Assembly (NCBI GenBank): GCA_020051695.1 | Contig: JAGVQM010000041.1 | Coordinates: 62,001-126,000 of the forward strand | From: Candidatus Zixiibacteriota bacterium | Lineage (GTDB): Bacteria > Zixibacteria > MSB-5A5 > WJJR01 > JAJRUJ01 | Direction: 5' to 3' | Length of the DNA: 64,000 nt | Shown here: in pieces, positions 22,288 through 47,787 of the stretch | Layout: every line of letters begins with the position of its first letter | Numbering within the stretch: the stretch's first letter is position 1 | Program-made: the position numbers and the translations under genes | Notes under the pieces: generated by a model | Told to the model about the DNA's origin: nothing | Databases searched by the model: none | Seen by the model: only the letters and a program-made list of their open reading frames with translations

Positions 22288-24306
22288 ATGTGCAAAAAGT
22301 GTGTGTGGTTGGTGTGTGTCTGCTGGTGCATGTTGCCGGTAGTTGCCGGCGCCCAGAATCTGTTGAACGGTCCCGAGAGTGTGGTGTTCGATTCGCTGCA
22401 CAACAGGTACCTGGTGGCGAACTACAACGACGGCAATCTCATTGAAGTCACGCCCGAGGGAGAACAGACCCTGTATTACTCGCCGGGCGGACACAGTTTC
22501 GGCTCGCATATTGTCAACGGCATATATTATGTGACTCAAAATGCCCGGGTATTGGGATTTGATCTGAGCACTGATGAACTGGTCGTGGACCAATCGGTTA
22601 TCAACGGCAGGTGGCTGGACGGCATCACCTCCGATGGGTCGGAATATCTCTATATTGTCTGTACTGCCGGCCAGATCTACAAATACAGAATCAGCGATAA
22701 CACCTACGTCCTTTTCGCCAATGCCGGGTTGGTCAGCAACCTGCAAACGTGCGTATATGACGGTGATTACAACCGGCTCGTGGCAGTAGAATTTTATGAG
22801 GACGCGCCGATCAAGGGGGTGGACCTCACCTTTGCGGATGTCACAACCCTGGCGACCACCACGGTCGGTGACTGGGACGGCGTGACCATCGACGACGAAG
22901 GTTACATTTACGTCGCCGCCGCAACCGACCGGGTCATTTATCGGTATGAACCGACCTTTACCGACCCGCCTATCGTCTTTTGCGACGTTCCCGGCTGGCC
23001 GGCGGGAATCAATTACAACCAGCGCGACCATATCCTGGCCATTCCCTGTTTCTACCAGAACCAGTTGGTTCTGGTGTTGGATATCTATAAGGCGGATTCC
23101 GACGGTGACGGCTTGGTCGATGCCTATGACAATTGTCCGAATGATGCCAACCCGCTGCAGGAAGACGGCGACAGTGACGGAGTCGGTGATCCATGTGACA
23201 ACTGCCCGGACAATGCCAATCCCGTACAGGAAGATATCGACGGTGACGGTATCGGTGATATCTGTGAGACATTGCGGACCTGGATGGTGCGGATTGATGG
23301 GGTGGGCGATGCGGTGACCATCCAGGCCGCAATTGATTCGTGTACACATGGCGACACGGTGCTGGTGAGTGATGGGTACTATTCCGGAGACGGCAACCGG
23401 GCGTTTGATTTCGGCGGCCGCCGCAGTCTGGTGCTGCGCTCGGAGCATGGTCCCCAGACCGTGGTTATCGACTGCGACGGCAGCGTAACCGAGGCCCGCC
23501 GGGCGTTTACGTTCGATAACGACGAGGATTCAACGTTCGTGCTGGATGGATTCACGATCATCAACGGGTATGGGGAATATTTTAACGGCGGCGCCTCCGG
23601 CGGGGCCATCCTGGTCGATAATTGCGAACCGACGATCAAAAACTGTGCGTTTGCTGGCAACGTGGCAGTGTACGGGGGTGGGGTGTATCTGTATCGTTCA
23701 GACGCCAGGTTGACCAATTGCACGTTCGCCGGTGACTCCGCGCAGCTCGGCGCAGCAGTCTTTGCCTATGTCAGCAGCGACGTCGAGATTGAAAACAGTA
23801 TCATCGCCTTTAATACCGGGGGGCAGCCGGTTTACTGTTTGTCCGCCAGCACGGCCACGTTGTCCTGCTGTGACGTGTTCGGCAACGTTGGGGGGGATTG
23901 GGTGGGGGCGATCCTCGGGCAAAACGGCATTAACGGCAATATTTCGGCCGACCCGCTGTTGTGCAATGTCGCGATCGGCGACCTTGGCCTGACCGATGAA
24001 ACATCCCCGTGTCTGCCGGACAATAACGATTGTGCGGTGCTCATCGGCGCGCTGGGGATCGGCTGCTCGTGCAATTGCGGTGTGCCCGGCGATGTGAATT
24101 GCAGCGATGACCTGAATCCCGTCGATGTGTCGTTTTTGGTTAAATTTGTTTACCTGTCATTGAACGCCATGTGCGAGCCGCCGAATTGCCCATATCCGGT
24201 GGGCGATATGAACTGCGACACGCAGGTCAATCCGGTCGATGTTGCTTATCTGGTCAAGGCGGTATATAAAGCACAAGACGCCATTTGCGAGGGCTGCGCG
24301 CCGTAA
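22288..24306 (+). CDS. Secreted protein: beta-propeller, TSP3 repeats, beta-helix and dockerin pair
   Basis: 672 residues. Cys-rich signal peptide (about 1-22, cleavage near VAGAQ); a repetitive propeller-like region (about 25-270, with NGPESVVFD and DGVTIDDEGYIYVAAA); two calcium-binding thrombospondin type-3 units (DSDGDGLVDAYDNCPNDANP); a right-handed beta-helix of the periplasmic-copper-binding type (about 330-570, GGVYLYRSDARLTNCTF); and a C-terminal dockerin pair (GDVNCSDDLNPVDV and GDMNCDTQVNPVDV). The dockerin loops contain Cys. GGCGGAGGA precedes the ATG. Probably surface-exposed, bound through a cohesin such as that encoded at 39564. Catalytic activity is not evident. Confidence 0.88.
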   Translation: MCKKCVWLVCVCWCMLPVVAGAQNLLNGPESVVFDSLHNRYLVANYNDGNLIEVTPEGEQTLYYSPGGHSFGSHIVNGIYYVTQNARVLGFDLSTDELVVDQSVINGRWLDGITSDGSEYLYIVCTAGQIYKYRISDNTYVLFANAGLVSNLQTCVYDGDYNRLVAVEFYEDAPIKGVDLTFADVTTLATTTVGDWDGVTIDDEGYIYVAAATDRVIYRYEPTFTDPPIVFCDVPGWPAGINYNQRDHILAIPCFYQNQLVLVLDIYKADSDGDGLVDAYDNCPNDANPLQEDGDSDGVGDPCDNCPDNANPVQEDIDGDGIGDICETLRTWMVRIDGVGDAVTIQAAIDSCTHGDTVLVSDGYYSGDGNRAFDFGGRRSLVLRSEHGPQTVVIDCDGSVTEARRAFTFDNDEDSTFVLDGFTIINGYGEYFNGGASGGAILVDNCEPTIKNCAFAGNVAVYGGGVYLYRSDARLTNCTFAGDSAQLGAAVFAYVSSDVEIENSIIAFNTGGQPVYCLSASTATLSCCDVFGNVGGDWVGAILGQNGINGNISADPLLCNVAIGDLGLTDETSPCLPDNNDCAVLIGALGIGCSCNCGVPGDVNCSDDLNPVDVSFLVKFVYLSLNAMCEPPNCPYPVGDMNCDTQVNPVDVAYLVKAVYKAQDAICEGCAP

Positions 24307-25426: not shown

Positions 25427-25662
25427 TATGTCAGCCACGTTGACTACTTAATCGGTTGATATGCAATATGTTTTGTCATTCGCTCCATTTTCCGCTTCAA
25501 ATTCCATAGGCAATCCGGCGATTATTCATATATTAAGAGACAACCGACGAGGGGCAGGGCGTTTAGCTGTCCACGCCGGGGAAACTGGTGATGTGGCATG
25601 GCCAGATGGATAATCTCATTTTTCCACACTATGCATATTGACCTGCGATGGGGAGAGCCGCG

Positions 25663-28600
25663 ATGAAGATCAGGGGTTTGGTGAATTTACTGATTGTGTT
25701 ATTGTTCTTGTCGGCGTTTGGTTTCTTGTTAGTCGTTTCATTTCCAATAGCTTCCGCTGCCGAAACAATTACCGTGGAATATACGTTCGAACGGCCCGAA
25801 ATCCGCGAGATTACCATCGACGGTGTTGGATATCACAAAATCCTCATGGCCGGGGCACCGAATTCCGGGATTGCCGGACATCCGCTGCTTCCCGCGCGCG
25901 GGGCCAATATCCTGTTGCCGCAGGATAGCCGCATCTCGCAGATTGAGGTGGTCCCCGACGGCAAAGTCCTGCTTGGCGGCGGCTTTTCGCTTGTGCCGGC
26001 CGGCCGGCCATATAAACTTTCCGCAGGCCCCGGCGCACTCGTGCCGCTGGCCCGGGATTCGGCGGTGTACGGCTCGGCCTTGCCGGTTCCGGGGAAGGTC
26101 TATGAACAAATCGGCACGCAGCAGTTTCGTGGACAGCGGTTTTTCACCTTAAAACTCACACCGGTCGAGTATATTCCGGCCTCGGGAGAACTATCATACT
26201 ATGCCACGATTACGGTTATTGTCCACACCGAACCAGCCGATCGCCAAAGTACGCTGTACCGCGGCCTGCTCGCCGATCGCACCGAGCTGCAACGCAAAGT
26301 GGATAATCCTGAGCTGCTCGACGCCTATTATCCTCAGGCGCGGGTCCCGGCGGCGAACTATGATCTATTGATCCTCACCACGCAGACACTGGCCGGTTCT
26401 TTTCAATCCTTGAAGGATTACCATGATACCACCGGCGTGTTGACCGAAATCCACACCATAACCGAAGTCGGCAGCAGTGATCCCGCGGCAGTCCGGGATT
26501 ACATCCGCGAACGCTATCTTAATGACGGCATTCAATACGTCCTGATCGGCGGTGATGATGATTTGATTCCTGCGGTCAACCTGTACGTGGCCTCGTGGGC
26601 GGGCGCGGGAGCGGATATTGAATATGCCATGCCGGGCGACCTGTATTTCGGCTGCCTTGACGGGACGTACAACTACGATGCCGATTCCCGCTGGGGTGAA
26701 CCGACCGATGGTGACGGCGGCGGGGATGTGGACCTGGTGGCTGAGGTGGCGGTCGGCCGGGCGCCGGTCGGCAACGTCACGGAAGCCGATCGGTTTGTGA
26801 GCAAAACCATGCAGTACCTGACCACGTCCGATACTTATCTGCAAAATATCCTCATGTGCGGGGAATACCTGGGTTTCGGCGGAGTATCGGACTATGCCGG
26901 GAATATGATGGATCAAATTGTGGATGGTTCCTCGGCCGATGGTTATACGACTATCGGCATTCCCGCCGACCAGTATGCGATCGACCGGCTGTACGACCGC
27001 GACTGGCCGGGTAACGACTGGCCGGTGTCGGAATTAAACTCGCGGGTCAACAACGGTCTGCATGTAATCAACCACCTGGGGCACGGCAACACGGATTGGG
27101 CTTTGAAAATGACCTCCAGTGCCGTGTTGACCAACTTCGCCAATACCGACCACTGTTTTTTGTATTCGCAGGCATGTTATTCCGGACATTTCGATGACGC
27201 TGAGTGTTGGGCCGAGTACATGGGGATCAAGACCGATTACGGCGCCTGGGCCGTAATCATGAACGCGCGGTACGGTTGGGGGGCATCCTATTCCACCGAC
27301 GGCGCTTCGCAGCGGTTTAACCGCGAATTCTGGGACGCGGTGTTTAATTCCGCCGAAGGCATGCCGGAAATCGGCCGGGCCAATGGCGATTCCAAGGAAG
27401 ACAACCTCTATCGGATCAACGAAGACTGTATGCGGTGGTGTTATTATGAAATCAATCTGTTTGGCGATCCGACAGTAAGCATCCGCGGCGCTGCTGGGCT
27501 TTCGTTTAGCTATCCCGGCGGCATTCCCGAAACAGTACTGCCGAACGATGCAACAACATTTGAGGTGCTGATCAATGCGTATGGCGACGCAGTGCTTGTT
27601 CCGGGAAGCGCCCAATTGCATTATTCGATTTCCGGCGCCCCATGGCAAACCGATGCGTTGGCTGAAACCGGTCCGGGCGAATACCTGGCTGTCCTGCCGG
27701 CGTTGAATTGCACGCATGCCATTGAATTTTACATCAGCGCCGAGGAGGAAACAACCGGCCGTGTTTGCGACCCCGATCCGGCTTCGCCGCACACCGCCTT
27801 TCCGGTAACCGGCGAAATTGCCTTTTATGAAGATGATTTCGAGACCGATCAGGGGTGGACCATTTCCGGCGGGCAGTGGGCGCGCGGGACTCCGCTTGGC
27901 GGCGGCGGCGCCTACGGCAACCCGGACCCGGCAGCCGCACATTCGGGTACCCAGGTCTATGGGTATAACCTGAGCGGAGATTATATCGCCAATATGCCCG
28001 AATATCATGTGACCAGCCCCGTCATCGATTGCTCCGGCCGGGTCAATGTGCACGTCAAATTCTGGCGCTGGCTGGGCGTGGAAAGCCCTTCCTATGACCA
28101 TGCCTCTGTCCGAGTGTCCACGAACGGCGTTACCTGGACGACAGTTTGGCAGAACGGCACTGAGATTGCCGACGGCGCCTGGACCGATTGCGACGTCAAC
28201 ATTTCCGCGGTCGCCGACAACCAATCGACGGTGTACCTGCGCTGGACGATGGGGACCACCGACGGCGGCTGGGAGTATTGCGGCTGGAATATTGATGATG
28301 TCCGCGTCGTGGCTGCCGATTGTGAGGATGCCGGCGCCGATTCCGATAACGACGGCATCCTCAATGGTGTGGACAATTGCCCATACACCGCCAATCCGGG
28401 GCAAGAAGACGGGGACGGCGACGGCGCAGGTGATGTCTGCGACAATTGCGTGTCCATCTCCAATCCGCCGCAGGAAGACGCCGATGACGATGGGACCGGC
28501 GACGCGTGTGATGAGTGCACTGATGTCGACGGCGACGGCTGGGGGGACCCGGGATTTGCCGCCAATACCTGCGCGGTCGACAATTGTCCGGACACGCCCA

Positions 28601-29112
28601 ACCCCGCGCAGGAAGATAACGACGGTGACGGTGACGGCGATGCGTGTGATCCGGATGACGACGATGACGGGGTCGTGGACCTGCAGGATAACTGCCCGTT
28701 TGTGTCCAATGCCGGTCAGGAAAACAACGACGGCGACGGATTGGGTGATCTGTGTGATCCCGATGACGACAACGACGGCGTGGCCGATCTGGATGATAAT
28801 TGCCCGCTGGCCGGGAACCCCGGACAAGAAGATGGCGACGGTGACGGCCTTGGTGACGTATGTGATGATTGCGATTGCAGCGAACTGGGCGACTGGGACG
28901 GCAACGGCAACTGTGACCCGCTCGATGTCGGGTACATCGTGGCTTATGTCTACAAATCGTGGGGCTCGCTTCCGCCGCCGATCGACAATTGTCCGGAAGT
29001 CCACGGCGATTGGGATTGCAGTGGGTCGCTTAATCCCGTTGATGTCATCCGCATGGTCAATTACGTCTACCGCTCACAGGCGGTCGGACCTTGCGAACGT
29101 TGCACGGAATAA
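25663..29112 (+). CDS. Secreted C25 (gingipain-type) cysteine protease with TSP3 repeats and dockerins
   Basis: 1149 residues from ATG 25663 (GGGGAG upstream). Signal peptide (about 1-33, ending near ASAAE), propeptide-like beta domain (to about 230), C25 catalytic domain with His474 (HLGHGN) and Cys505 (SQACYSG), an Ig-like segment after 610, a jelly-roll/MAM-like domain (about 725-890, [12 protein letters not shown]), five or so thrombospondin type-3 calcium repeats (about 895-1075), and a C-terminal dockerin pair ([32 protein letters not shown]). Unlike gingipains it has no T9SS-type C-terminal domain here; the dockerins probably provide surface attachment. The long antisense ORF over the repeats is compositional. 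Confidence 0.92.
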
Positions 29113-32662: not shown

Positions 32663-35600
32663 ATGGCGAATTGGAAAACGTGTATTTTTCTGGTCTGGAT
32701 CGGGATTTCGACCTCCGGGGTCCGGGCCATGCCCCCGGTGCAGCAACGGGCCGAATTATATCGCTCGGTCGCCGATCTCGAAATCGATTATCAGGTCACG
32801 GTCGATGCCAATCAGCTTTCCATGTTTGTGACCAATATCGGGTCCTTTGGGCGCGATAATACGAATTTGCTGGGACGCACCGACGGGTTGTATTTTCCGG
32901 CGGGATATCACACGACGATCCTGTACTCCGGCGGGCTGATGCTCGGTGCACTCGTCGACGGCGCAGTCCGCGTCAGCGCTGCCGGATACCCACAGCATAC
33001 CTATTCACCCGGGCCCATGAAGGACGGCACTTTCCAGCCGGATAGTAGTTCTTTCAGGGTGTACAAAATATTCCGCGATTTGTATGAAAACGGGTTTTAC
33101 GACGACCCGCGGCCGGTAACCGACCCCCAAGCACAAAAACGTTGGGATGATTATCACAACTGGCCTGCGGAGATGGGCGCGCCGACCTATCCTGACGGCC
33201 TGCCCCGGTTTTACGGCGATCAGACGTTATGGTCGGTGTTCAATGATGCCGATCCGGCCACGCATACCAACCTCTTCGGTTCAAGTTCCGGGTTGGGTGT
33301 GGAAATCCAGCAGACGACTTTTGCCCTGGACATTTCGAACCCCCTGAAACGGTGTATCTTTACTCGGTACCTGCTGATCAATAACGGCGCCCATGATTTG
33401 GACAGTATGTACGTGACCTTGTGGGGCGATCCGGATATCGGTGATCCCAACGACGATCGTTCCGGCTGTGATATATCGCTGGACCTCGGCTATGCCTATA
33501 ACGCGCAGGATGTGGATTCCCTGTATGGCGTCGGCCCGCCCTCGGTCGGTTTTTGCCTGCTCAATGGCCCGCTGACGCCGTCCGCCGCCGATTCCGCTCA
33601 GTTTCTCTGGGAATGGCGGCAGGGATACCGCAACCTGCCAATGACTTCCTTCATCAGGACCATCTCGGGCACTGATCAGCTGAACGCTCAGGAATCCTAC
33701 TGGTACATGCAGGGCCGGGACGCAAAAAACGGTGGGTACGCGATCTTTGATCCGAGGACTTTCTATCCGACCACGTACATGGTTTCCGGTGATCCAATCA
33801 CCGGGAGCGGGTGGGTGGATGATGCCGCCAGGATCAACCGGGAGGTATCCATCACCGTGGAGCAGACAATCCACGACTATGAAAGTCCAATCGAACCGCC
33901 TCTTAATGTTTTTGAAAGTCCCGATTACTACGACTTGTGGCACGTTTCCTCAGATCAGCCCGGTGATCCCCTGCGATTTGATCATCTTGGTCATATTGGC
34001 ACAGGCGTCTGGGAAATGCGCTTCGTTGATGCAATGTTCGGCAGCTTATATTACGATTGGGATACGCGCTTGCCGACAGCTCCGGCCCTGGCGCCATTCG
34101 AGGTTTGGTCCGAAGGCCAGCGGCTGGAAATATTTATCGACGACATCAATGCTGATGGTCTATGGTCACCCGGGGATGTTGTTTATTTTTGGGAAGAGTT
34201 ATATCATTCTGCACCATATCTAATTGCGACACCTGCAGATTCCACGCTGCGCATTGGGCGGATTATCATCAACGACTCAGCGCCCCTGGATCATCCCGTC
34301 ATTCGTTTTACGTCGACCGAGACCGCAGATACACTTCCCGGCGCCGACGGCCGATTCATGGTTTCCACGGGCCCGTTTCACATGGCCCCCGGCGATACCC
34401 AGGAAGCCTCGTTTGCCATCATGGTCGGCGCGGATGATACCTACCTCCAGTCCATATCCGATCTGGAGACCAACGCCGCCGCCGCGCGGGACGCCTGGAG
34501 CCGGGGTTTTGACGGCCCGCATTTCCTGCACCCGCCGACGCCGGTGCGGGACACGCTCTTCGAGGTAATCGAAGGTGAGGAGATCACTTTTACTGTCTCG
34601 GCGATTGATTCCACGCTTGGTGATACGGTCACTCTCACGGTCGGCGGCATGCCGTCCGGCGCCGTGTTGTCGCCGTCGTTGCCGTTAAAAGGCAATCCGG
34701 CACGAACTACGTTCTCCTGGACCCCCGGCGCAGGGCAAATCGGCAACCATCAAATGCTGTTCAGCGCCACGGACCTGAACACGGGCTTTACCGAAACCTA
34801 CCCGGTCGGGATCAGGGTCTTGACGGCCAATGTCCCGCCGGAGTTTTCCCATCCACCTACCCCGGCGTGCGACACCGCCTTTAACGTCGTGGCGGGCGAT
34901 ACGCTGGAATTTATCATCGAGGTCTTCGATGTAGACAAGCTCGATGATGTGACGCTGACCATCGACGAGTTGCCGCAGGGCGCCCTGCTGACTCCCGCGC
35001 TGCCGGCAACAGGCAATCCGGTCCAGACGACATTTCGTTGGACTCCCGATTACTCTCAGCTCGGTTCGCATACATTCAACTTCGGAGCCATTGATCCGAC
35101 GGGCGCCGTGGCGGAAACCTGCTCCTTCACAGTTATCGTTTCTTCGGCGGGCCTGGCCCCGGAATTTGTTCATCCCCCGACACCGGGGTGTGAAACGACC
35201 ATTATTACCTCGGCCGGTGTGCCGGTAAGTATAACGGTCGAGGCCTTTGACCCGGTAGCTGCCGACCGCGTGACATTAAGCGTGGCGAATCTTCCAGCCG
35301 GGGCCGTGCTGAGCAATGCCCTTCCCGCCACGGGCAACCCGGTGACGACAACCCTGACCTGGCAGCCGGCCTATAGTCAGCTTGGTCTGCACACGGTGCA
35401 GTTTGCGGCCCGGGATTCCATTGATGGTCTGGCCGCGCAATGTTCGTTTATTATCGAAGTGATTTCGGCGGACCTTCCGCCGATTTTTGCGCATCCGCCA
35501 ACGCCGAAATGTGACAGTATATTCACTATCGAGGCGCGGGATTCGATATGTTTGATCATTGAGGCCTTCGATGAGATCGCGGCTGACCGGGTAACGCTGA

Positions 35601-37099
35601 GTGTGACAGGACTGCCGCCAACCGTCGTTGCCCATCCCCTACTGCCGGTGACCGGTAATCCGGTCAATTCACAGATCTGCTGGCGGCCAACGTATGCCGA
35701 GCTGGGCCATTACCCCGTTGTAGTCACGGCCACCGATTCAATCGACGGACTGGCTGTCCAGTGTCCGTTTCTATTCCAAGTCGTTTCGGCGGCCATCCCG
35801 CCGGAATTTGTCCACCCGGCGACTCCCGCCTGTGATACCGTGTTCCAGGTGCAGGTGGGGGATACCGTGCAATTCAATGTTCATGTGTTGGACGTCATTG
35901 ATGTCGAGACAGTGACGCTGAGCGCCGACGGTGTGCCGGCCGGCGCGGTCATTACCCCGGCGTTGCCGTCCTCGGGCAATCCGGTCCATGTTACGTTTTA
36001 CTGGGTGCCGATCTCCGCCGATGTCGGCGGACATTCCCTGGCATTCACCGTTACGGATTCGATCGACGGTCTGACCGACGAATGTCTTGTCGAACTGGCT
36101 GTTACCCAAAATGCGCTGGAAATCGTGAGCGTGACTCCGACCGGAACATTGCAAATCGACAGCAGTTTCAGCATCACCTTCAATTATCCGGTGGATACGC
36201 TCTACCTTGATGATGAGGAATTATCTCCCACCATCGGTTTCATCCCCCATGGCGGCCGATACAGCACTGCTGATAATCGGCACACCATCGTGTTTCACCC
36301 GTTTAATTTGTTTCCTCCGCTCAGCGAGGTGTCCGTGGATTTATCAGGGCTTCGCGGCGCGGACGGGCAAACCTGGGCTGAGGGGTCCCAGCGCACCATT
36401 ACGTTCCAGACCGGGTACGGCGTTTATTCCGGCGATCTGAATAATGACGGCCGGGTCGATTCACTTGATGTATTGCCCATCGCAATGCACTGGCGGCAGG
36501 AGGGGCCGACGGCAGCTGCTGATGGCTGGCGCACATGGGGCGTGCGCCCGGCGCGGGATTGGTCTCCTGCCACGGCAGTATACGCCGATGCCAACGGCGA
36601 CGGTCTCGTCGATGAGACAGACTTGTTCCCCATCGGCCGCCATTGGCACCGGACACACGGTAACGCCAGTCCCGTGGCCGGGGCGGGTGCGGACTTCGAC
36701 CCGACGTTCTACCAAACGGAATTACGGGCGTTTTACGATGCCATCCGGGAAGATGATTCGCCGTTTATGCGCAATGTCCGCACGCAACTGGAACACCTGT
36801 TAGGGGTGGCGGCGGTCCCACAGGATTTCTTTCTGGCGCAGAATCACCCCAATCCGTTCAACGCCGAGACCTCGATCACTTTTGCGCTGGCGCAGCGAGA
36901 GTATATCACGCTTACAGTCTATGACGCGCTGGGGCGGACGGTCCGTGTGCTGGCGCAGGGGGATTATCCTCCCGGCAGCCATACGCTCGGCTGGGATGGT
37001 CTCGACGGAAAAAACTTGCCGGTGAGCAGCGGAGTGTATTTCTATACCCTGACTGGGAAAAAGCGCAGCGAGACACGCAAGATGATGCTGCTGAAATAG
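32663..37099 (+). CDS. Giant surface protein: Ig-like repeats, dockerin pair, FlgD/T9SS-like C-terminal sorting domain
   Basis: 1478 residues from ATG 32663 (AAAGG 7 nt upstream; the frame opens at GTG 32645). Signal peptide about 1-22. Region 25-615 is a unique beta-rich domain. Five cadherin/Ig-like repeats start near residues 620, 727, 832, 938 and 1046, each opening with a HPPTP- or HPATP-type motif and containing a GNPV-type turn. An SbsA-like Ig domain (about 1150-1250) follows. A dockerin with two calcium loops (DLNNDGRVDSLD, DANGDGLVDETD) comes next, then a C-terminal FlgD-Ig domain (NHPNPFNAETSITF to MMLLK). A -10-like TATAAT at 32561 lies upstream. First gene of a five-gene set. Confidence 0.9.
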   Translation: MANWKTCIFLVWIGISTSGVRAMPPVQQRAELYRSVADLEIDYQVTVDANQLSMFVTNIGSFGRDNTNLLGRTDGLYFPAGYHTTILYSGGLMLGALVDGAVRVSAAGYPQHTYSPGPMKDGTFQPDSSSFRVYKIFRDLYENGFYDDPRPVTDPQAQKRWDDYHNWPAEMGAPTYPDGLPRFYGDQTLWSVFNDADPATHTNLFGSSSGLGVEIQQTTFALDISNPLKRCIFTRYLLINNGAHDLDSMYVTLWGDPDIGDPNDDRSGCDISLDLGYAYNAQDVDSLYGVGPPSVGFCLLNGPLTPSAADSAQFLWEWRQGYRNLPMTSFIRTISGTDQLNAQESYWYMQGRDAKNGGYAIFDPRTFYPTTYMVSGDPITGSGWVDDAARINREVSITVEQTIHDYESPIEPPLNVFESPDYYDLWHVSSDQPGDPLRFDHLGHIGTGVWEMRFVDAMFGSLYYDWDTRLPTAPALAPFEVWSEGQRLEIFIDDINADGLWSPGDVVYFWEELYHSAPYLIATPADSTLRIGRIIINDSAPLDHPVIRFTSTETADTLPGADGRFMVSTGPFHMAPGDTQEASFAIMVGADDTYLQSISDLETNAAAARDAWSRGFDGPHFLHPPTPVRDTLFEVIEGEEITFTVSAIDSTLGDTVTLTVGGMPSGAVLSPSLPLKGNPARTTFSWTPGAGQIGNHQMLFSATDLNTGFTETYPVGIRVLTANVPPEFSHPPTPACDTAFNVVAGDTLEFIIEVFDVDKLDDVTLTIDELPQGALLTPALPATGNPVQTTFRWTPDYSQLGSHTFNFGAIDPTGAVAETCSFTVIVSSAGLAPEFVHPPTPGCETTIITSAGVPVSITVEAFDPVAADRVTLSVANLPAGAVLSNALPATGNPVTTTLTWQPAYSQLGLHTVQFAARDSIDGLAAQCSFIIEVISADLPPIFAHPPTPKCDSIFTIEARDSICLIIEAFDEIAADRVTLSVTGLPPTVVAHPLLPVTGNPVNSQICWRPTYAELGHYPVVVTATDSIDGLAVQCPFLFQVVSAAIPPEFVHPATPACDTVFQVQVGDTVQFNVHVLDVIDVETVTLSADGVPAGAVITPALPSSGNPVHVTFYWVPISADVGGHSLAFTVTDSIDGLTDECLVELAVTQNALEIVSVTPTGTLQIDSSFSITFNYPVDTLYLDDEELSPTIGFIPHGGRYSTADNRHTIVFHPFNLFPPLSEVSVDLSGLRGADGQTWAEGSQRTITFQTGYGVYSGDLNNDGRVDSLDVLPIAMHWRQEGPTAAADGWRTWGVRPARDWSPATAVYADANGDGLVDETDLFPIGRHWHRTHGNASPVAGAGADFDPTFYQTELRAFYDAIREDDSPFMRNVRTQLEHLLGVAAVPQDFFLAQNHPNPFNAETSITFALAQREYITLTVYDALGRTVRVLAQGDYPPGSHTLGWDGLDGKNLPVSSGVYFYTLTGKKRSETRKMMLLK

Positions 37100-37114
37100 A
37101 CGCGGAGGAAACAC

Positions 37115-38407
37115 ATGAACATACTTTGGCGCTGGGGTATGGGCGCCCTCATTCTGGCGGTTATGGGTTGTGCGCAGACTGCCTCTCAGTTGGGCCATAA
37201 CGCCATGAAACAGAAAAACTACTACCTGGCAGAATCCCGCTTCCAGGAAGCGCTCGCCGCCAACCCACAGGACTGGGCGGCCCGCCGTGGACTGGGGCTG
37301 GCCTATTACGGGCGTGGCGAGTATGACCAGGCGGCCCGGGAACTGGAAACCGTCCGACAGCAAATGCCCGCCGACGGCCAAACCAGTCTGTATCTCGGCC
37401 TGACCCGTGAACGTCTCGCCGATTTCGCTGCTGCTGAGCAGGTGTACAGCCGTTATGTGGCGCTGGACAATAGTTCGCAACTGGCCCGGCGCATCCGCGG
37501 ACGTCTGCTCTATGTCCAAAATGAAAAAGCGCGGCAGCAGGTGCAACAGGCCATCCAATTCGATCAACCGCTGATCGGCGACGCCGGAGGGGCGCGGGTG
37601 GTCGGTGTGCTGCCGTTTATCCCGGTCGGGGAGGACGCCGAGCGGCTCGATCCGCTGGCGGTCGGTCTGGCCGCGCTGGTGGTGGACGACCTGTTCCGCA
37701 TCGGGAGCATTAAACTCGTCGAACGCATGCAATTGAATTATATCCTTGATGAACTGGCGCTGGCCGGTGATTCGGTGGTCGATGTTTCCTCCGCGCCGCG
37801 CTTGAACCGGTTGATCGGCGCGGGCTACCTCGTGCGCGGCGACCTGGTGTCGCTGGACAACGAGGAGGTCGGGATTCATTCCGGAGTTATCAATACTCGG
37901 CAGAAGACCTACAACCCGGTCATCGATTCGGAAGAAAAATTCAGCAAGTTATGGAGCCTGCAAAAACAAATTACGTTTGCGATTATCGACTCACTGGGCA
38001 TCGTCCTGACTCCCGAGGAGCGCAACGCGATCAGCCGGGTGCCCACGGAAAATTATGAGGCCTTTCTGGCCTACTGCAACGGCATTGCGGAAAAAGACCA
38101 GGGCAACTATGATGCCGCCGGGCAATACTTCAACCAGGCGGTGCTGGCCGACCCCAACTTTGGCCAGGCCGTGGACATGAAAGAAGAGGCCGGCCTGCTG
38201 GAGGAAAACGGCGGCAATCAGGATGAATTCGAAAGCACGCTCGGCTCGCAGATTGGCGGCGAGACGCTGGCGACGGGCTTTGACACGGATGTCACCGGCG
38301 AATTCGAAGACCTGACCGAAAACGGTGTGGATAACAACGATACCGTGCCGGTCGAGGATGTCACCGGGGAGACTGGGACGGTGTCTGTCGGCGGGACCAT
38401 TCGGTAG
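37115..38407 (+). CDS. CsgG-like lipoprotein with N-terminal TPRs
   Basis: 430 residues; GGAGG precedes the ATG and the gap from the previous gene is 15 bp. Lipobox LAVMGC gives Cys19 as the acylated residue. TPR-like helices occupy about 25-140. The CsgG/FlgO-type domain spans about 160-320 (VVGVLPFIPVGEDAERLDPL, LVERMQLNYILDELAL, YLVRGDLVSL), then another TPR unit and an acidic, low-complexity Thr/Asp/Glu tail. CsgG forms the curli export channel in the outer membrane. Here a related lipoprotein sits between an exported giant protein and a barrel protein, so a role in export or assembly is plausible but unproven. Confidence 0.85.
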   Translation: MNILWRWGMGALILAVMGCAQTASQLGHNAMKQKNYYLAESRFQEALAANPQDWAARRGLGLAYYGRGEYDQAARELETVRQQMPADGQTSLYLGLTRERLADFAAAEQVYSRYVALDNSSQLARRIRGRLLYVQNEKARQQVQQAIQFDQPLIGDAGGARVVGVLPFIPVGEDAERLDPLAVGLAALVVDDLFRIGSIKLVERMQLNYILDELALAGDSVVDVSSAPRLNRLIGAGYLVRGDLVSLDNEEVGIHSGVINTRQKTYNPVIDSEEKFSKLWSLQKQITFAIIDSLGIVLTPEERNAISRVPTENYEAFLAYCNGIAEKDQGNYDAAGQYFNQAVLADPNFGQAVDMKEEAGLLEENGGNQDEFESTLGSQIGGETLATGFDTDVTGEFEDLTENGVDNNDTVPVEDVTGETGTVSVGGTIR

Positions 38408-38417
38408 GAGGGCAACG

Positions 38418-39557
38418 ATGCGCATTGCGCGATATCTTATCATTGCGGCCGCCCTGCTGGCGCCGGGCCGGACGCTGCTTGGCGCGACCTGGTCGGAGGA
38501 GTATTCGAAAGTCTCGGTGTTTTATCTATACAATACCTGGAATGAATCATTCGGTGATGATGATTTCGATATCGGCGAGGGTGTTGCGGGTGTCAAAGCC
38601 CGGCATGTGGTCAATCCGCGGCTTGCTTTGGATTTATGGGGGGCATTGACCAGCGCGAAATATGCCAATTCAACACCGGGCGAAGAGGGCGCAAATTTTT
38701 CCGCGCTGAGTGATACGCGGCTGAAAGGGACCTACTATCTCGGGAACCGCCTGTTCAGCGTCGCGGTGTCGCTTAATCTGCCGACCGGTAAGACGGCGTT
38801 GACCGACGAGGAATATCTGCTGGCCCTGGGTGTTGCCGACAATTCCCGCAAGTATATTGTCCGCCGGTTCGGACAGGGGCTGGATATCGGCGGTGAGGTC
38901 TTTGTGCTGCCGCGCAGCGGCAACATTGAATTCCAATTGGGCGCCGGGTACGTGGCCAAAGGCAGCTACCAGCTCCGCGAGGCGACCACGGCCGAATATA
39001 AATTCGGCAACGAACTGTTTGCCAGCGCCGCAGTTGAAATCGGCAGCCGGCCGGTCGGTTTCGAAGGCGGCGTGATATTTACCAGCTACGGTGATGATGA
39101 AGCCGACTCGCGCGTGGTCTTCCGTCAGGGGAAGACGATTGTCGTTCACGGGCGGTTGTTCTATATCCGCGAGCTGCAGGGCGCCGTGGGGTTCACCCTG
39201 ATCTCGCGCGGCCCGGCAAAGACCGCCGACGGCAGCGGTGAGTTGACCGAGGAATCGATCAAATCCGGGCGAAACGAAATGCAGGTGTACGCCTCCGGCG
39301 GCAAACCGCTTACTCCTGCAGTCCAGGCGCTTGTCCGTCTCGAATACAAAATGACCGGCGCGAACGACTATGACGAAGACGTTGCGGGGTATCGCCCGGG
39401 GGCCGACTACCTGGGGCTTGGCGGCGGAGTGAACGCGCGGTTCTCGCTGGCGTGGTCGGGCAATCTCATGGCGACATATTACACCGGCGGGACTAATGAC
39501 GATCATGACTTGACCGGTCTGGGGCTGGCGGCCGTGTTAACGTTCAGATACTGGTAG
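38418..39557 (+). CDS. Predicted outer-membrane beta-barrel protein
   Basis: 379 residues from ATG 38418 (GGAGGG upstream), 10 bp after the previous gene. Signal peptide about 1-23 (LLAPGRTLLGA). The mature sequence is a succession of short amphipathic strands alternating with acidic turns (FSVAVSLNLPTGKT, VEIGSRPVGFEGGVIF, LMATYYTGGTNDDHD). It ends in VLTFRYW, a terminal aromatic residue as recognised by the BAM machinery. No enzymatic or transporter family recognised; similar barrels have been annotated as 'transporter' without evidence. Confidence 0.82.
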   Translation: MRIARYLIIAAALLAPGRTLLGATWSEEYSKVSVFYLYNTWNESFGDDDFDIGEGVAGVKARHVVNPRLALDLWGALTSAKYANSTPGEEGANFSALSDTRLKGTYYLGNRLFSVAVSLNLPTGKTALTDEEYLLALGVADNSRKYIVRRFGQGLDIGGEVFVLPRSGNIEFQLGAGYVAKGSYQLREATTAEYKFGNELFASAAVEIGSRPVGFEGGVIFTSYGDDEADSRVVFRQGKTIVVHGRLFYIRELQGAVGFTLISRGPAKTADGSGELTEESIKSGRNEMQVYASGGKPLTPAVQALVRLEYKMTGANDYDEDVAGYRPGADYLGLGGGVNARFSLAWSGNLMATYYTGGTNDDHDLTGLGLAAVLTFRYW

Positions 39558-39563
39558 GGGCAG

Positions 39564-42476
39564 ATGAGAACAACATTCCTCTATATTTTGGCGGGCGCGA
39601 TGTTCATCGCCGCGGCATTACTGTTGAATTGCGGGACCCAGAATCCGGGTGGCAGCTTTTCCGGCGCCTCTGCTGCAGTCGATGTCCGGCTGGTCAGAAG
39701 CTCGCTGGCCGAGCAGATCACCCGCGTCAGTCTAAGCGTCGCCGCGGACGGCACAACCGTGCACCAGGCCAACGCGCAGGTGGTGGACGGGGTGTTCCAG
39801 TTTGCGGAATTCGAAGTGCCGGTGGGCAATGTCTCTTTTTCATTGCATGCGACAAATGCCGCAGGCAACGTTTTGTATGCGGGCGATACCACGGCGAGCG
39901 TTATCGCCGGCGCCGTGACTCAACTATCCATCGAATTGTTGCCCGCTGTGCCCATGATCAAACTGTCGCCGTATTTCACGGAACTCGAACCCGGCGACCA
40001 GTTTTTCAGCACGCTGGAGATGTTTAATATCGAACGTTTTTATAGCGGCTCATTTGCAGTCCAATATGATCCGGCGTTGATATCCTTTAACGGTACGATC
40101 AGCCAGGTGGGGAATGCCTGGGGTAATCTGGTGACGTTTGCCCGGGACGTGGGGGATACGGTCCTTGTCTCGATCACACGGACGACGACTTCCGACGATA
40201 CGGCGCCGGCAGGCGCATACTCGCTGGTGCGGCTGGGTTTCGCTGCGCTGGCCGGTGGAGATACCGAGCTGAAGTTAATCTGTGACCAAATCGAGGACCT
40301 TGACGGGCCCATTGCTGAACGGCAGGTATTGCACTGTGACCCGCAGCTGGTTTCCATAGTCGGGCCTGAGTCAATTCCACCCGGCCGGATCAACGATTTG
40401 AAAACTGATTCGATCACCAGTACCTGGATCACATTGAGCTGGACTGCTCCCGGGGACGACAACTCGACCGGGACTGCCGCGCAGTACGATTTCCGTTATT
40501 CGACCTCGCCGATCACCGAAACGAACTGGCATTCGGCCTTGCAGGTCCTGAATATGGCGCCCCCCGGCCCGGCGGGTTCTACCGACCAGATGACTGTGCC
40601 CAACCTGGGGCCGTCCACGGTTTACTATTTTGGCATCAAAGCCGCAGACGAAGTACCCAACTGGTCCCAGTTATCCAATATCGTTTCGGCGACCACGTCA
40701 ACGGCGCCGGATACTATTCCGCCGGGTATTGTTACCGATCTGCGCGTGGTGGGTGTTGCCGCCACTTCGGTTATTCTGGTGTGGACGGCGCCGGGTGATG
40801 ACAGTGCAGCCGGCGGCGCAGCCGCGCAATACGATTTGCGGTACTCCACTTCGCCGATTTCGGAATCCAACTGGGCCGGCGCTGCTGCCGTGACGGTTGG
40901 TTTTGCGCCGGGCACGCCGGGCGCTAATCAGCAGTATACGGTCACCGGCCTGCAATCCAACATCGTGTACTATTTCGCCCTGAAAACCGCCGATGAGGTC
41001 CCCAACTGGTCGGTGATTTCCAATAATACGAGTTCGGCCACGGCCGATGGTGTACCTCCCGCGGCCATCACGGATCTGCTGACAGGTGCGCCCACGGATA
41101 CATCGATCACTCTGCAATGGACGGCGCCGGGCGATGACGGCAACTACGGCACGGCGGCGCAGTATGATATCCGTTATTCCTCACTACCGATCGACGCAGC
41201 AAATTGGACTGCCGCCATCCAGATCACCGGCGAGCCGACTCCGAGTCCGGCGGGTACGGTACAAAGTTATATGGTCAGGGGACTGATGCCTTCGACAGCG
41301 TATTATTTTGCCATGAAAACCGTGGACGATGCCGGCAACTGGTCAGCGTTGTCCAACGTAGTTTCCGAGACGACGGAACAGCCGCAGGACCTCATCCCGC
41401 CGGGGACTATTGCCGACCTGCGGGTAATCGATTCAACGTCGTCCTCCATCACTCTGGCCTGGACGGCACCCGGCGATGATAATCTGCTGGGACAGGCCGG
41501 TACCTACGACCTGCGCATCGCGACGTTTTTAATTACCCCCCAGAACTGGGACCAGACGACTTCGCTACTCGGTGTGCCCGCGCCCGCCGCTGCCGGGAAT
41601 CAAGAATCGGTCGCTGTCATTGGGTTATGGCCGCAAGCCCATTATTATTTTGCGATCAAGACCGCCGATGAGGTCCCCAACTGGTCGGGATTGTCCAATG
41701 TGGCTTCCTCGACAACGCTCGCCCCGCCCGATGTTACGCCGCCCTCCGCGATCGCCGATCTGGTCGTGGAGGACGTTGCCGCAGATATGGTCTCTTTGAT
41801 CTGGACCGCCCCCGGCGATGACGGAATGGTCGGCGTTGCTTCAGCATACGACATCCGTTATTCTACATCGCTGATTACCTCATCCAACTGGGCTTCGGCA
41901 ACGCAAGTTGCCGGGGAGCCGCTGCCCGGTGCAACCGGTACGACCGAAAGTTTTGCCGTAGGCGGCCTTGATCCTGCCACGACGTATTATTTCGCCATCA
42001 AGACCGCCGATGAGGTCCCCAACTGGTCGGGACTGTCCAATGTGGTAGATGCGGTAACAAATGTGGGCATTGTGGGCTGGGTCAGACTGGACCGTATGGA
42101 ACCGGATATCTACAATATGAATTTCGACCACTCGGACTACGCAGGGTTCGATAATTTCTTCGAACCGCCGGAGTACGATCCACATTGGAGCGTCTCCGGT
42201 TATAATGCCTGGCTGGAATTCGAATTTTCCGGGCAATACGATTTCTTCATCCACGCTACGCCCTCGATGGGTACGGAGACGCCCCTCTGTCTGGTAACAT
42301 TCTTTATAAATGACGCGGTTGTGCCGAATTTTCCGATCGACCCGGGGCCATCGACGCCGTGGGTTAATTACTATATTCCGGCTGAGAATTTCACGAACGG
42401 GACGAATCGAGTCAAAATTCAACTGGTGAGTTCCACGCCGCTGTGGATCGACGCGGCCTGGATTCAGCAACCATAG
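39564..42476 (+). CDS. Lipoprotein with cohesin domain and five fibronectin type III repeats
   Basis: 970 residues, 6 bp after the barrel gene. Signal peptide with lipobox LLNC (Cys23). A short Ig-like domain (about 35-125), then a cohesin-type domain (about 128-267: LEPGDQFFSTLEMFN, FAVQYDPALISFNG, YSLVRLGFAALAGG). Five FN3 repeats start near 271, 386, 496, 611 and 726, each with a TAPGDD loop and YYFA-K-DE-NWS ending. The C-terminal 835-970 is a jelly-roll-like module possibly binding carbohydrate. Cohesins bind dockerins; three dockerin proteins are encoded in this window. A lipid-anchored cohesin could hold them at the surface. Domain calls are from visible motifs. Confidence 0.85.
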   Translation: MRTTFLYILAGAMFIAAALLLNCGTQNPGGSFSGASAAVDVRLVRSSLAEQITRVSLSVAADGTTVHQANAQVVDGVFQFAEFEVPVGNVSFSLHATNAAGNVLYAGDTTASVIAGAVTQLSIELLPAVPMIKLSPYFTELEPGDQFFSTLEMFNIERFYSGSFAVQYDPALISFNGTISQVGNAWGNLVTFARDVGDTVLVSITRTTTSDDTAPAGAYSLVRLGFAALAGGDTELKLICDQIEDLDGPIAERQVLHCDPQLVSIVGPESIPPGRINDLKTDSITSTWITLSWTAPGDDNSTGTAAQYDFRYSTSPITETNWHSALQVLNMAPPGPAGSTDQMTVPNLGPSTVYYFGIKAADEVPNWSQLSNIVSATTSTAPDTIPPGIVTDLRVVGVAATSVILVWTAPGDDSAAGGAAAQYDLRYSTSPISESNWAGAAAVTVGFAPGTPGANQQYTVTGLQSNIVYYFALKTADEVPNWSVISNNTSSATADGVPPAAITDLLTGAPTDTSITLQWTAPGDDGNYGTAAQYDIRYSSLPIDAANWTAAIQITGEPTPSPAGTVQSYMVRGLMPSTAYYFAMKTVDDAGNWSALSNVVSETTEQPQDLIPPGTIADLRVIDSTSSSITLAWTAPGDDNLLGQAGTYDLRIATFLITPQNWDQTTSLLGVPAPAAAGNQESVAVIGLWPQAHYYFAIKTADEVPNWSGLSNVASSTTLAPPDVTPPSAIADLVVEDVAADMVSLIWTAPGDDGMVGVASAYDIRYSTSLITSSNWASATQVAGEPLPGATGTTESFAVGGLDPATTYYFAIKTADEVPNWSGLSNVVDAVTNVGIVGWVRLDRMEPDIYNMNFDHSDYAGFDNFFEPPEYDPHWSVSGYNAWLEFEFSGQYDFFIHATPSMGTETPLCLVTFFINDAVVPNFPIDPGPSTPWVNYYIPAENFTNGTNRVKIQLVSSTPLWIDAAWIQQP
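41644..42045 (+). repeat. Near-identical 60-bp direct repeats within the FN3 array
   Basis: Bases 41644-41703 and 41986-42045 match at 57 of 60 positions. Less similar copies end FN3 units near 40989. Identity at DNA level indicates recent duplication or gene conversion between FN3 units. Confidence 0.8.
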
Positions 42477-42502
42477 AGTTGATAGGCGGGGAATCATCGT
42501 CC

Positions 42503-43252
42503 GTGGGAATCTACAAAGATTTCGCCCATTTCTATAAAAACGGGCATTATCCCGATTTCAGCAAACGCATGTTCGAACTGCTGCCGGGAGTCCTTGAACT
42601 GTTCGAGGCCCGGCCGCAACGCGTGTTGGATATTGCCTGCGGCGAGGGGACTTTTGCTGTGGCCATGGCCCGGGCCGAGTACGACGTGACCGGCATCGAT
42701 GAGTCCGAGCGGATGCTGCACTACGCACGTGCACGCGCCAGGAAAGAAAAAGTCCGAGTCGGTTTTCACGCCCAGGACATGCGGTCGCTGTCCTTCGTTG
42801 ACGAATTCGAGCTGGTGACCTGTTGGTTTGATAGTTTGAATTACTTGCTGGAACTGGACGATGTGTGCCGTACTTTCGCCGGTGTGGCCCGGGCGCTGCG
42901 TCCGGGCGGCTTGTTCATCTTTGATGTGAACACAATCTACGGGCTGGCGGTCAACTGGCAAAGCGAGGGTTGTTTTGTTCAGACCGACCGCCCGAAATTA
43001 TTTGAGGTCCTGCGCCCCGAATACGATTATGAAGCAAATATCGCCACCCTGCGGATCACCGGATTCCGCAAGACAGCGGAGGGCTGGCGGCGCATGGACG
43101 AACAACACCGGGAACGGGGGTATACGCTGGAAGAGCTCGCGACATGTGTGGACCGGGCCGGGCTGCACAAGCTGGCCTGCTGGGGCAGTTTCCGGGAAAA
43201 GAGCGAACCCCAGTCCGACAGCGGCCGCGTGTGGTTTGTCGTCGGAAAATGA
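42503..43252 (+). CDS. SAM-dependent class I methyltransferase
   Basis: 249 residues. The frame opens at 42443 inside the cohesin gene, but GTG 42503 (VGIYKDFAHFY) is preceded by GGGGA and starts the conserved region. Motif I VLDIACGEGTFAVAMA, acidic IDESERML, motif IV WFDSLNYLLE and LRPGGLFIFDVNT are clear. The 26-bp gap after the cohesin gene suggests co-transcription with the surface-protein set. Substrate unknown; methylation of a glycan or lipid is one possibility. Confidence 0.87.
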   Translation: MGIYKDFAHFYKNGHYPDFSKRMFELLPGVLELFEARPQRVLDIACGEGTFAVAMARAEYDVTGIDESERMLHYARARARKEKVRVGFHAQDMRSLSFVDEFELVTCWFDSLNYLLELDDVCRTFAGVARALRPGGLFIFDVNTIYGLAVNWQSEGCFVQTDRPKLFEVLRPEYDYEANIATLRITGFRKTAEGWRRMDEQHRERGYTLEELATCVDRAGLHKLACWGSFREKSEPQSDSGRVWFVVGK

Positions 43253-45123: not shown

Positions 45124-47787
45124 GTGGACGGGGTTGAAGCTGTGGATGACCGACTGCCGGACGATGAGCGGACGCAGAGTTTTACCGTCCTGACCGAAGG
45201 CACGCTGGTTTCCCATTACGCGGTGATCAAACGCCTCGGCGCCGGGGGCATGGGTGAAGTCTATCTGGCGGATGATACTCGTTTGCACCGCAAGGTGGCG
45301 TTGAAATTCCTGCCCGCGCACCTGGTCTCGGATGAGCAGGCCCGGACCCGCTTTGGCCGAGACTCACGGGCTGCGGCCTTGTTGGATCATCCCAACATTG
45401 TCACCATCCATGAAGTCGGGGAATTCCAGGGCCGGCCGTACTTCGCCATGCAGTTTGTCGAAGGCCCGACTTTGCGTGATTATTGTTCCGGCCGGGATCT
45501 GACGGTTCCGGAGATTATCAACCTGACCATACAAATTTGTGAGGGGCTGGCCAGGGCCCATGAAGCGGGGATCGTCCATCGGGATATCAAACTGACCAAT
45601 ATTATGATCGATGCCGATGGGCGGCCGATATTGCTGGATTTTGGCCTGGCGACGATCCCGGGCGATGAAAAACTGACCCGGACCGGTTCCACGATGGGCA
45701 CAGTGGGCTATATGTCGCCGGAACAGGTCCTGGCCAAAAAAGTGGATGCCCGGTCGGATTTGTTTTCTCTGGGCGTGGTCCTCTATGAAATGATCACCGG
45801 CCGCCAGCCGTTCAAAGGTGAAAACCAGGCGTCGTCGCTGCATGCCATCACTCATGATACCCCTGAACCGCTGGCCCGCTTCAAGACTGGCGTCCCCGAC
45901 CGGCTGCAATTTATCGTTTCGAAACTCCTTGAAAAAGATCCGGCGCTACGGTACCAGAACGCCGCCGGGGTGATCAGCGATCTCAAACGCGCGAATCTTT
46001 CCGGGGATTCCGTATCCCCCGTGCGGTCCCGGCTATTCACGCGTCCGGTCGTGTGGGGTGTCGCGGCATTGACCGTCATTCTCCTGGTTGGTCTGGTGAT
46101 GAAATTTCTCATTGGAGGTGGGCTGACTCATCGAGAGGACCGGCCGCTGATGCTGGCCGTGCTGCCGTTTCAGAATCTGGGGGCGGCGGAGGATGAGTAT
46201 TTTGCCGATGGCATTACTGAAGAAATCCTCACCAATCTCGCCCGGTTGTCGGGACTTGGAGTCATCTCGCGCTCCAGCGCCATGAAATATAAAAATACCG
46301 ACAAAGACCAGCATCAAATCGGCCGGGAACTTGGCGTGGAGTATCTGCTGGAGGGCACGATCCGCTGGGACAAATCAGGCGGGTCCAGCCGGGTCAGGAT
46401 CAGTCCGCAGTTGATCTGCGTGAAGACCCGGATCAACGAATGGAGCGAGACGTTTGACACGGTCATCAGCGATATTTTTGCCGTACAATCCGGTATCGCT
46501 CGGCAGGTCGCGCAGGCGTTGAACGTGACCCTGTTGGAGTCCGAACAGCAGGCGATCACCCAGCCGCCGACCACCAATCCCGAGGCGTATGATTTTTATC
46601 TGCGCGGCAACCAGTATCTGTCAAGTTCCGAAAAAGATATCCGCAATGCCGAGGAAATGTATCGGCGGGCCATTGCCGTTGAGCCGTCTTTCGCGCTGGC
46701 GTACGCACAACTTGGTTTTGTGCACACCCAGATGTACTGGTGGCACTATGACTCATCACCCGAACGGCTGGCGGCGGCCAAACAGGCGATCGATCGTGCT
46801 CTGGAAATTTCGCCAGGGCTGGCCGAAGGGCAGTTTTCGCTGGCCTGGTACTATTATCACGGGTTGCGCGATTATGATCGCGCGTTGGAAATGTTTTTCA
46901 CCGCGCGGCGGGGGCAGCCAAATAACAGTCGGTTGATCAAGACCATTGGGCTGGTCCAGCGCCGGCAGGGGAAATGGCAGGAGGCGGCCGACAACCTGCA
47001 ACGTGCTGCGGAACTGGACCCCCGCAGTGCCGGCAATTTCAATGAACTGGCCGGCACGCTGATCAGTCTTCGCCGATACGCCGCAGCCGATACGCTGCTG
47101 GGCAGGGCTATTGAGCTGGCCCCTGATCTGCAGTGGGCCTACGTCAATAAATGTCTGCTTTATCTCCTGTGGGACGGGGATACTAAACGGGCGCGGGGAG
47201 TTATTCGCGAGGCCCTCGCGGCCTGCGACCGCTGGCCGTTTCTGACCTATCTGGAAATTACGCTGGACAGAATGGACGGCGCGTATGAACACGCCTTCGG
47301 TCTGTTGTCCGGGCCGGGCAGCGCATATGCAATCGGCGGAACCGATACCGCGGAATATTATTGCATCAAAGCCGACATTTGCCGGCATTACCGGCCGCAG
47401 CTGAGGGAAATCTACTGCGATTCGGCCCGCCTTCTCCTCGAACGGTACGTCAGCTCCGACCCCGGCGAACCTTATTACCATTTATTCCTGGGGCGTGCGT
47501 ATGCCGGGATGGGCCGCAAGGAGGATGCCATCGCCCAGGCGTTGAAGGCCATCGAATTGTTTCCGATCTCCTCGGATGCTTATTCAGCTCCCGATTTTAT
47601 CGGCGTGCTGGCCGAAATCTATACGATGACCGGAGAATACGACCTGGCTCTTGGCCGGCTTGACTATATGCTGTCCATACCCTCATGGATCTCGATTCCG
47701 TATATCCGCATCTGGCCGGAGTTCGCGCCGCTGCGCGAGCATCCCGGATTTGGTGAACTTGTCGGGAAGTATTCACCTGTGAATTAA
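45124..47787 (+). CDS. Ser/Thr protein kinase receptor: PknB-like kinase, TM helix, TolB-like domain, TPRs
   Basis: 887 residues from GTG 45124. Kinase domain about 30-290: GAGGMGEVY glycine loop, VALKFL Lys, HRDIKLTN catalytic loop near 150, DFGLA, and GTVGYMSPEQ activation segment. One transmembrane helix (about 310-332, WGVAALTVILLVGLVM). Then a TolB-amino/FlgO-like domain (about 340-480, LAVLPFQNLG, VEYLLEGTIRWD) and about eight TPRs to the end. The kinase should face the cytoplasm and the TPRs the periplasm. Same extracytoplasmic architecture as the anti-sigma protein at 19251. No ATG lies near the GTG and no strong ribosome site is visible, so the start is less certain. Confidence 0.92.
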   Translation: MDGVEAVDDRLPDDERTQSFTVLTEGTLVSHYAVIKRLGAGGMGEVYLADDTRLHRKVALKFLPAHLVSDEQARTRFGRDSRAAALLDHPNIVTIHEVGEFQGRPYFAMQFVEGPTLRDYCSGRDLTVPEIINLTIQICEGLARAHEAGIVHRDIKLTNIMIDADGRPILLDFGLATIPGDEKLTRTGSTMGTVGYMSPEQVLAKKVDARSDLFSLGVVLYEMITGRQPFKGENQASSLHAITHDTPEPLARFKTGVPDRLQFIVSKLLEKDPALRYQNAAGVISDLKRANLSGDSVSPVRSRLFTRPVVWGVAALTVILLVGLVMKFLIGGGLTHREDRPLMLAVLPFQNLGAAEDEYFADGITEEILTNLARLSGLGVISRSSAMKYKNTDKDQHQIGRELGVEYLLEGTIRWDKSGGSSRVRISPQLICVKTRINEWSETFDTVISDIFAVQSGIARQVAQALNVTLLESEQQAITQPPTTNPEAYDFYLRGNQYLSSSEKDIRNAEEMYRRAIAVEPSFALAYAQLGFVHTQMYWWHYDSSPERLAAAKQAIDRALEISPGLAEGQFSLAWYYYHGLRDYDRALEMFFTARRGQPNNSRLIKTIGLVQRRQGKWQEAADNLQRAAELDPRSAGNFNELAGTLISLRRYAAADTLLGRAIELAPDLQWAYVNKCLLYLLWDGDTKRARGVIREALAACDRWPFLTYLEITLDRMDGAYEHAFGLLSGPGSAYAIGGTDTAEYYCIKADICRHYRPQLREIYCDSARLLLERYVSSDPGEPYYHLFLGRAYAGMGRKEDAIAQALKAIELFPISSDAYSAPDFIGVLAEIYTMTGEYDLALGRLDYMLSIPSWISIPYIRIWPEFAPLREHPGFGELVGKYSPVN

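Follow-up and report, generated by a model that had tools for sequence, protein, structure and literature searches.

The DNA analysed here, which we call the window, is a stretch of 64,000 nucleotides from a Candidatus Zixiibacteriota bacterium. Between positions 32663 and 43252 it carries five open reading frames on the plus strand, separated by gaps of 15, 10, 6 and 26 bp (Table 1). The last of these gaps presumes that the methyltransferase starts at the GTG at 42503; its longest reading frame, from the GTG at 42443, overlaps the preceding gene. No strong terminator was found in the short gaps that separate the first four genes, in a terminator scan that overall performed at chance level. 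An earlier interpretation made from the letters alone (the sequence-only reading) had proposed a five-gene cohesin-dockerin surface assembly operon, and open reading frame and domain searches recovered all five genes with the gaps and domains it had described. An 887-aa Ser/Thr kinase with TPR, encoded at 45124-47787, some 2 kb further downstream, matches the profile of the CsgG-like/TPR protein (E 7e-48).

Table 1. Features of the window discussed in the text (positions are those of the window).
Feature	Position	Strand	Remarks
Secreted beta-helix protein	22288..24306	+	terminal dockerin-like pair, short-linker type
C25 (gingipain-like) peptidase	25648..29112	+	TSP3 repeats, terminal dockerin-like pair
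docC, giant secreted protein, 1478 aa	32663..37099	+	Ig/He_PIG repeats, internal long-linker dockerin, C-terminal FlgD-like/T9SS type A sorting domain
docC dockerin module	36401..36667	+	two canonical EF-type loops, DLNNDGRVDSLD and DANGDGLVDETD, 51 residues apart
docC FlgD_ig/Por_Secre_tail (TIGR04183)	36848..37087	+	C-terminal sorting-like domain
CsgG-like/TPR lipoprotein, 430 aa	37115..38407	+	lipobox cysteine 19; TPR N-terminal, CsgG-like central, TPR C-terminal
Putative outer-membrane beta-barrel, 379 aa	38418..39557	+	marker gene of the cluster
Cohesin lipoprotein, 970 aa	39564..42476	+	lipobox cysteine 23; small beta domain, cohesin, five FN3, C-terminal region
Cohesin domain	39945..40364	+	residues about 128-267 of the 39564 protein
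Class I methyltransferase	42503..43252	+	co-directional neighbour, probably outside the system

Pfam searches of the docC product returned He_PIG/Ig repeats, Dockerin_1 at residues 1257-1321 and an FlgD_ig tail, and the tail scored 33.3 bits against the T9SS sorting-domain model TIGR04183 (cut-off 23). The description of this gene as a giant dockerin protein with a FlgD/T9SS-like C-terminus is thereby borne out. The dockerin matches PF00404, its matches in the PDB are dockerins, and the duplicated calcium-binding loops expected of such a module are present, with both loops canonical in almost every member of the family. The spacing of the loops is 49-60 residues in 14 homologues, one of which is that of the window, compared with 28-39 residues in six ordinary dockerins checked likewise, five from the genome that contains the window (the source genome) and one a clostridial sequence taken for comparison. 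Judged by their sequences, the docC dockerins are a distinct long-linker family that tracks the cohesin of the cluster. Exactly two proteins of the source genome carry a dockerin of this kind, the docC of the window and one on contig C20.

When Pfam Cohesin is used alone, the window's cohesin is overlooked: the 39564 protein reaches only E=0.068, and a genome-wide search with that model misses it. A homologous lipoprotein from a second locus of the same genome (BLASTP 3e-12) does pass Pfam Cohesin, and PF00963 is matched by 20 of 27 homologues of the 39564 protein. With a family profile searched against the PDB, the top 16 matches were all cohesins (best 1.6e-5), only cohesins appeared down to E ~0.03, and the match covered positions 128-252. 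An AlphaFold model of the domain, built from a three-sequence alignment (mean pLDDT 76), found cohesins as its best matches in Foldseek, including the archaeal non-cellulosomal cohesin of Archaeoglobus (2xdh, TMt 0.74). The PDB profile, the Pfam matches of the homologues and the fold of the model together confirm a cohesin fold at residues about 128-267, where it had been proposed; the fold check suggested at the time was thus run and passed. The protein carries a single cohesin, and its five FN3 domains and its lipobox agree with the FN3 lipoprotein read earlier. Its first small beta domain recurs in the extracytoplasmic part (residues ~390-490) of the cluster kinase of family f2, with E-values down to 3e-20 for the kinases of loci L097, L098 and L100.

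The assignment of the 38418 protein as a beta-barrel is retained as putative. Scattered weak matches to outer-membrane barrel families occur among its orthologues only; the protein itself has no Pfam match, and its family profile matched no barrel in the PDB.

We next consider how far this arrangement extends across Zixibacteriota. Four of the genes (docC, CsgG-like/TPR, barrel and cohesin) are kept in order across many families of the phylum at ~20-45% identity, a conservation that by sequence comparison is far beyond chance. In its most complete form the cluster is an operon of six genes that starts with a kinase, the order being kinase, second CsgG-like gene, CsgG-like/TPR, barrel, cohesin lipoprotein and dockerin giant (type I). 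Contig C20 of the source genome holds a complete paralogous set, consisting of a dockerin/FlgD giant, a cohesin lipoprotein, a CsgG-like/TPR lipoprotein and a barrel, together with a Ser/Thr kinase with PEGA domains. In type I loci of families f1 and f2, the barrel is followed by a 395-aa protein with no Pfam match (family 'X', L037:13501-14688).

Of 133 Zixibacteriota genomes searched by profile, 74 have the barrel, 77 the cohesin and 72 both; the corresponding Fisher test (P=9e-29) is uncorrected for phylogeny and only indicative, because the genomes counted share ancestry. At the level of loci, the cohesin lies within 500 bp of the barrel in 71 of 85 barrel matches, always on the same strand, and within 6 kb of a long-linker dockerin in 29 of 53 dockerin matches. 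About half of the docC matches have no adjoining cohesin match, and many of these lie on short contigs; the strict docC profile detects 40 of the 133 genomes, versus 77 for the cohesin. The co-occurrence in relatives that the sequence-only reading had anticipated is accordingly found for four of its five families. The pair of cohesin and docC persists where the barrel is absent (genomes G019, G049 and G054) and stays together on a contig other than that of the barrel in genomes G005 and G007, which argues for a partnership of these two proteins.

The methyltransferase had also been counted in the set. It is absent from all related loci, and we therefore treat it as a passenger and reject it as a cluster member.

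The window locus is best explained as a divergent second copy (type II) of this Zixibacteriota surface-assembly cluster. Type II loci were seen in seven genomes, which belong to families f1 and f5 and to a single genus of f2; these loci have neither the kinase nor the second CsgG-like gene, and their cohesin lipoprotein is longer wherever the locus is long enough to judge. A long-linker dockerin gene stands beside the type II set in the window alone; the other six type II loci lack a counterpart. The exact gene order of the sequence-only reading is not supported as the conserved one, in which (type I) the kinase comes first and the dockerin last. As the methyltransferase is unconserved and the placement of docC is specific to the window, the five-gene unit proposed earlier becomes a four-gene unit with a local arrangement. 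In two relatives a divergent gene beside the type II locus (L077:8773-12378 and L078:1607-5218) encodes a protein of 1.2 kaa with a terminal ordinary dockerin; the product of the former, the one of the two that was tested, is an M4-family peptidase.

Could the neighbourhood be an accident that brought unrelated envelope genes together? This does hold for the methyltransferase, and among type II loci docC adjoins the others in the source genome only. The phylum-wide synteny and the second, complete set of paralogues elsewhere in this genome nevertheless refute chance for the CsgG/TPR-barrel-cohesin neighbourhood, as the type I loci do for its linkage to docC, and we consider an accidental grouping scarcely credible.

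The role of the CsgG-like/TPR lipoprotein bears directly on how docC leaves the cell. By the mechanism that the sequence-only reading implies, this lipoprotein would assemble into an oligomeric pore in the outer membrane through which, together with the barrel, it secretes the dockerin giant. In favour of this, Pfam CsgG matches the 37115 protein above cut-off, most type I loci encode a second CsgG-like protein with a stronger match (50.8 bits), and both CsgG-like proteins are conserved with the barrel. CsgG has two transmembrane beta-hairpins per subunit. The Pfam match of the 37115 protein covers profile positions 39-105 of 210 only, and the segment that holds both hairpins measures 97 aa in E. 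coli CsgG versus 44 aa here. For this comparison we used an E. coli CsgG sequence 100% identical to annotated csgG records, with hairpin positions that we take from established knowledge of the CsgG structure. The two hairpins per subunit that mark the curli (type VIII) channel are thus missing from the 37115 protein, which lacks room for them and therefore probably forms no channel. The profile of the CsgG-like subdomain had no match in the PDB, and AlphaFold (three sequences) resolved the TPR parts only, the model being too weak for the CsgG-like part. Literature searches on CsgG-like/TPR lipoproteins returned nothing relevant. Of the CsgG-like TPR lipoprotein described earlier, the TPR, the lipobox and a partial CsgG match stand, while the secretion channel is disfavoured by the partial profile match and the short hairpin segment. 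Given also that a T9SS route is present and that docC bears a T9SS signal, we judge secretion through a channel of the cluster's own to be improbable.

That route rests on several observations. The tail of docC is the kind of C-terminal sorting domain (TIGR04183) by which T9SS cargo is recognised. A SprA homologue occurs in 129 of 133 Zixibacteriota genomes (e.g. G000:C25:248835-252803), and the PorV family in all 20 genomes searched, with at least 8 matches in each and 15 in the source genome, which thus contains both of these T9SS components. The presence of SprA and PorV across the phylum suggests a T9SS in Zixibacteriota. A GldM model gave no match and is uninformative, being silent in control genomes too. 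Because of its TIGR04183 tail and the SprA and PorV homologues, we propose a T9SS-like export of docC, which appears likelier than export through a CsgG channel. The FlgD-like C-terminus had already been taken as a surface-sorting signal, and its TIGR04183 score upholds this; the T9SS translocon and PorV were missing from that reading. Five genomes from the order of the window have a PorV gene ~4.5-7 kb downstream of type I docC; eight genomes from other families do not, and we dropped this linkage as a general feature.

The source genome contains many more dockerins and cohesins than those of the cluster. At least 33 dockerin loci score over the cut-off, and 12 cohesin matches were found at E<=1, seven of them over the cut-off of Pfam Cohesin. 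Seven of the 17 terminal-dockerin proteins that were inspected are peptidases (two M6, two M28, one M1 and two C25) and one is GH116-like; several of the genome's cohesin proteins have a T9SS sorting domain at their end. This peptidase-rich, cellulosome-like set is spread over contigs C6, C11, C14, C25, C28, C38, C39 and C42 (L111-L130) and includes 25648-29112 of the window. The terminal dockerin-like pairs of the 22288 and 25648 proteins are visible, though below the Pfam threshold. Since these dockerins are of the ordinary short-linker type, both proteins likely belong to the genome-wide terminal-dockerin set, outside this cluster. The sequence-only reading had offered the dockerins of the genes it placed at 22288 and 25663 as partners of the window's cohesin: the dockerin-like pairs at their ends were found, and they are of the other type.

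The abundance of dockerins raises the alternative that the cohesin lipoprotein serves many of them as a general receptor, with a peptidase-dominated cellulosome-like complex in which docC is one client. Besides the number of dockerin loci over the cut-off, the share of peptidases among the terminal-dockerin proteins inspected (7/17) and the existence of further cohesins, this alternative can point to the terminal-dockerin M4-type peptidase genes that adjoin type II loci in two relatives. Against it, the docC dockerins differ in their loop spacing (49-60 versus 28-39 residues) and track this very cohesin, and the other cohesin proteins, several with a T9SS tail, look like better candidates for the terminal dockerins. 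The peptidase/terminal-dockerin network is probably separate from the cohesin-dockerin set of this cluster, and we hold the general receptor to be unlikely, if less so than the secretion channel.

From the above we infer an export route, a surface location, cohesin-dockerin binding, a platform role and kinase control, as follows. The docC protein, with its C-terminal FlgD-like domain as sorting signal, would cross the outer membrane by a T9SS-like SprA/PorV route. The cohesin of the cluster's own outer-membrane lipoprotein would then bind the internal, calcium-binding long-linker dockerin of docC and so keep the giant non-covalently at the surface. In the outer membrane, the barrel and the CsgG-like/TPR lipoprotein(s) may provide a platform on which the cohesin lipoprotein sits, and the Ser/Thr kinase of type I loci may sense or control this platform. 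For T9SS export of docC with cohesin-dockerin capture at the surface on a barrel/CsgG-like/TPR platform, taken as a whole, we see the chances as evenly balanced. More tentative is the further proposal of a kinase-linked outer-membrane docking machine, in which a lipoprotein cohesin captures its own T9SS-exported long-linker dockerin giant.

The kinase also invites a different reading, namely that kinase, CsgG/TPR lipoproteins, barrel and cohesin make up an envelope sensor for which docC is a ligand and not a structural layer. A Ser/Thr kinase does head the type I operon, and in family f2 kinase and cohesin lipoprotein have a domain in common; yet the window locus has no adjacent kinase of the type I kind, and the docC proteins have the repeat-rich architecture of an adhesin or scaffold. 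Such a regulatory or sensory module seems to us rather improbable. Returning to the docking of docC by the lipoprotein cohesin, much of the earlier notion of a non-cellulosomal cohesin-dockerin set survives: the cohesin fold, the conserved co-occurrence and a lipoprotein and barrel of its own stand, and the CsgG channel and the methyltransferase fall away.

Most of what is known of cohesin-dockerin pairing comes from the breakdown of cellulose. Clostridial cellulosomes have in common with this cluster the cohesin fold, a calcium-loop dockerin and scaffolding by tight pairing, which is known there and predicted here. A classical cellulosome would have dockerin-bearing glycoside hydrolases and a multi-cohesin scaffoldin with a CBM; Pfam found neither glycoside hydrolase nor CBM in the five genes, in agreement with the earlier argument against a classical cellulosome, and the cohesin is single. 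The cluster differs further in its lipoprotein anchor of Gram-negative type, in a dockerin that is internal, with a linker ~15 residues longer, and followed by a T9SS-type tail, and in its CsgG-like and barrel partners. T9SS cargo resembles docC in its TIGR04183 tail, with SprA and PorV homologues in the genome; the proposed capture of cargo by a lipoprotein cohesin is, to our knowledge, no part of T9SS anchoring. With curli CsgG (type VIII) the cluster shares a CsgG-like central domain within a lipoprotein; it differs in that the hairpin segments are missing, TPR is added and no CsgA/B/E/F-like partner was seen. Noncellulosomal cohesins such as Archaeoglobus 2xdh, which is among the best fold matches, likewise occur outside cellulolysis; Peer et al., in 2009, reportedly described such cohesin/dockerin modules mostly as scattered modules, unlike the conserved multi-gene cluster found here. 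In Cloacimonadota, a cellulosome-like complex has been proposed for Ca. Stygibacter, with C-terminal dockerins on peptidases including C25 and S8 and a cohesin scaffold that carries a T9SS-type CTD (PMC8542988). The terminal-dockerin peptidases and T9SS-tailed cohesin proteins of the wider Zixibacterial genome resemble that complex; in the portions of that report drawn on here, an operon of a cohesin lipoprotein with CsgG-like/TPR, barrel and kinase is undescribed (PMC8542988).

An open-access literature search under the spelling 'Zixibacteria' found no publication joining this lineage with dockerin, cohesin or type IX secretion. The cluster is real and conserved, its mechanism plausibly a variant of the cohesin-dockerin principle, and its cohesin-dockerin genes are part of a phylum-wide envelope cluster with a kinase and T9SS-type cargo in an uncultured lineage. 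This suggests that cellulosome-like docking serves to fix a large protein at the cell surface, not to digest cellulose. If the pairing is true, it would reveal a new way of retaining T9SS cargo at the surface and supply protein engineering with a new subtype of dockerin, and it would give studies of how Zixibacteriota construct their surface a testable starting point.
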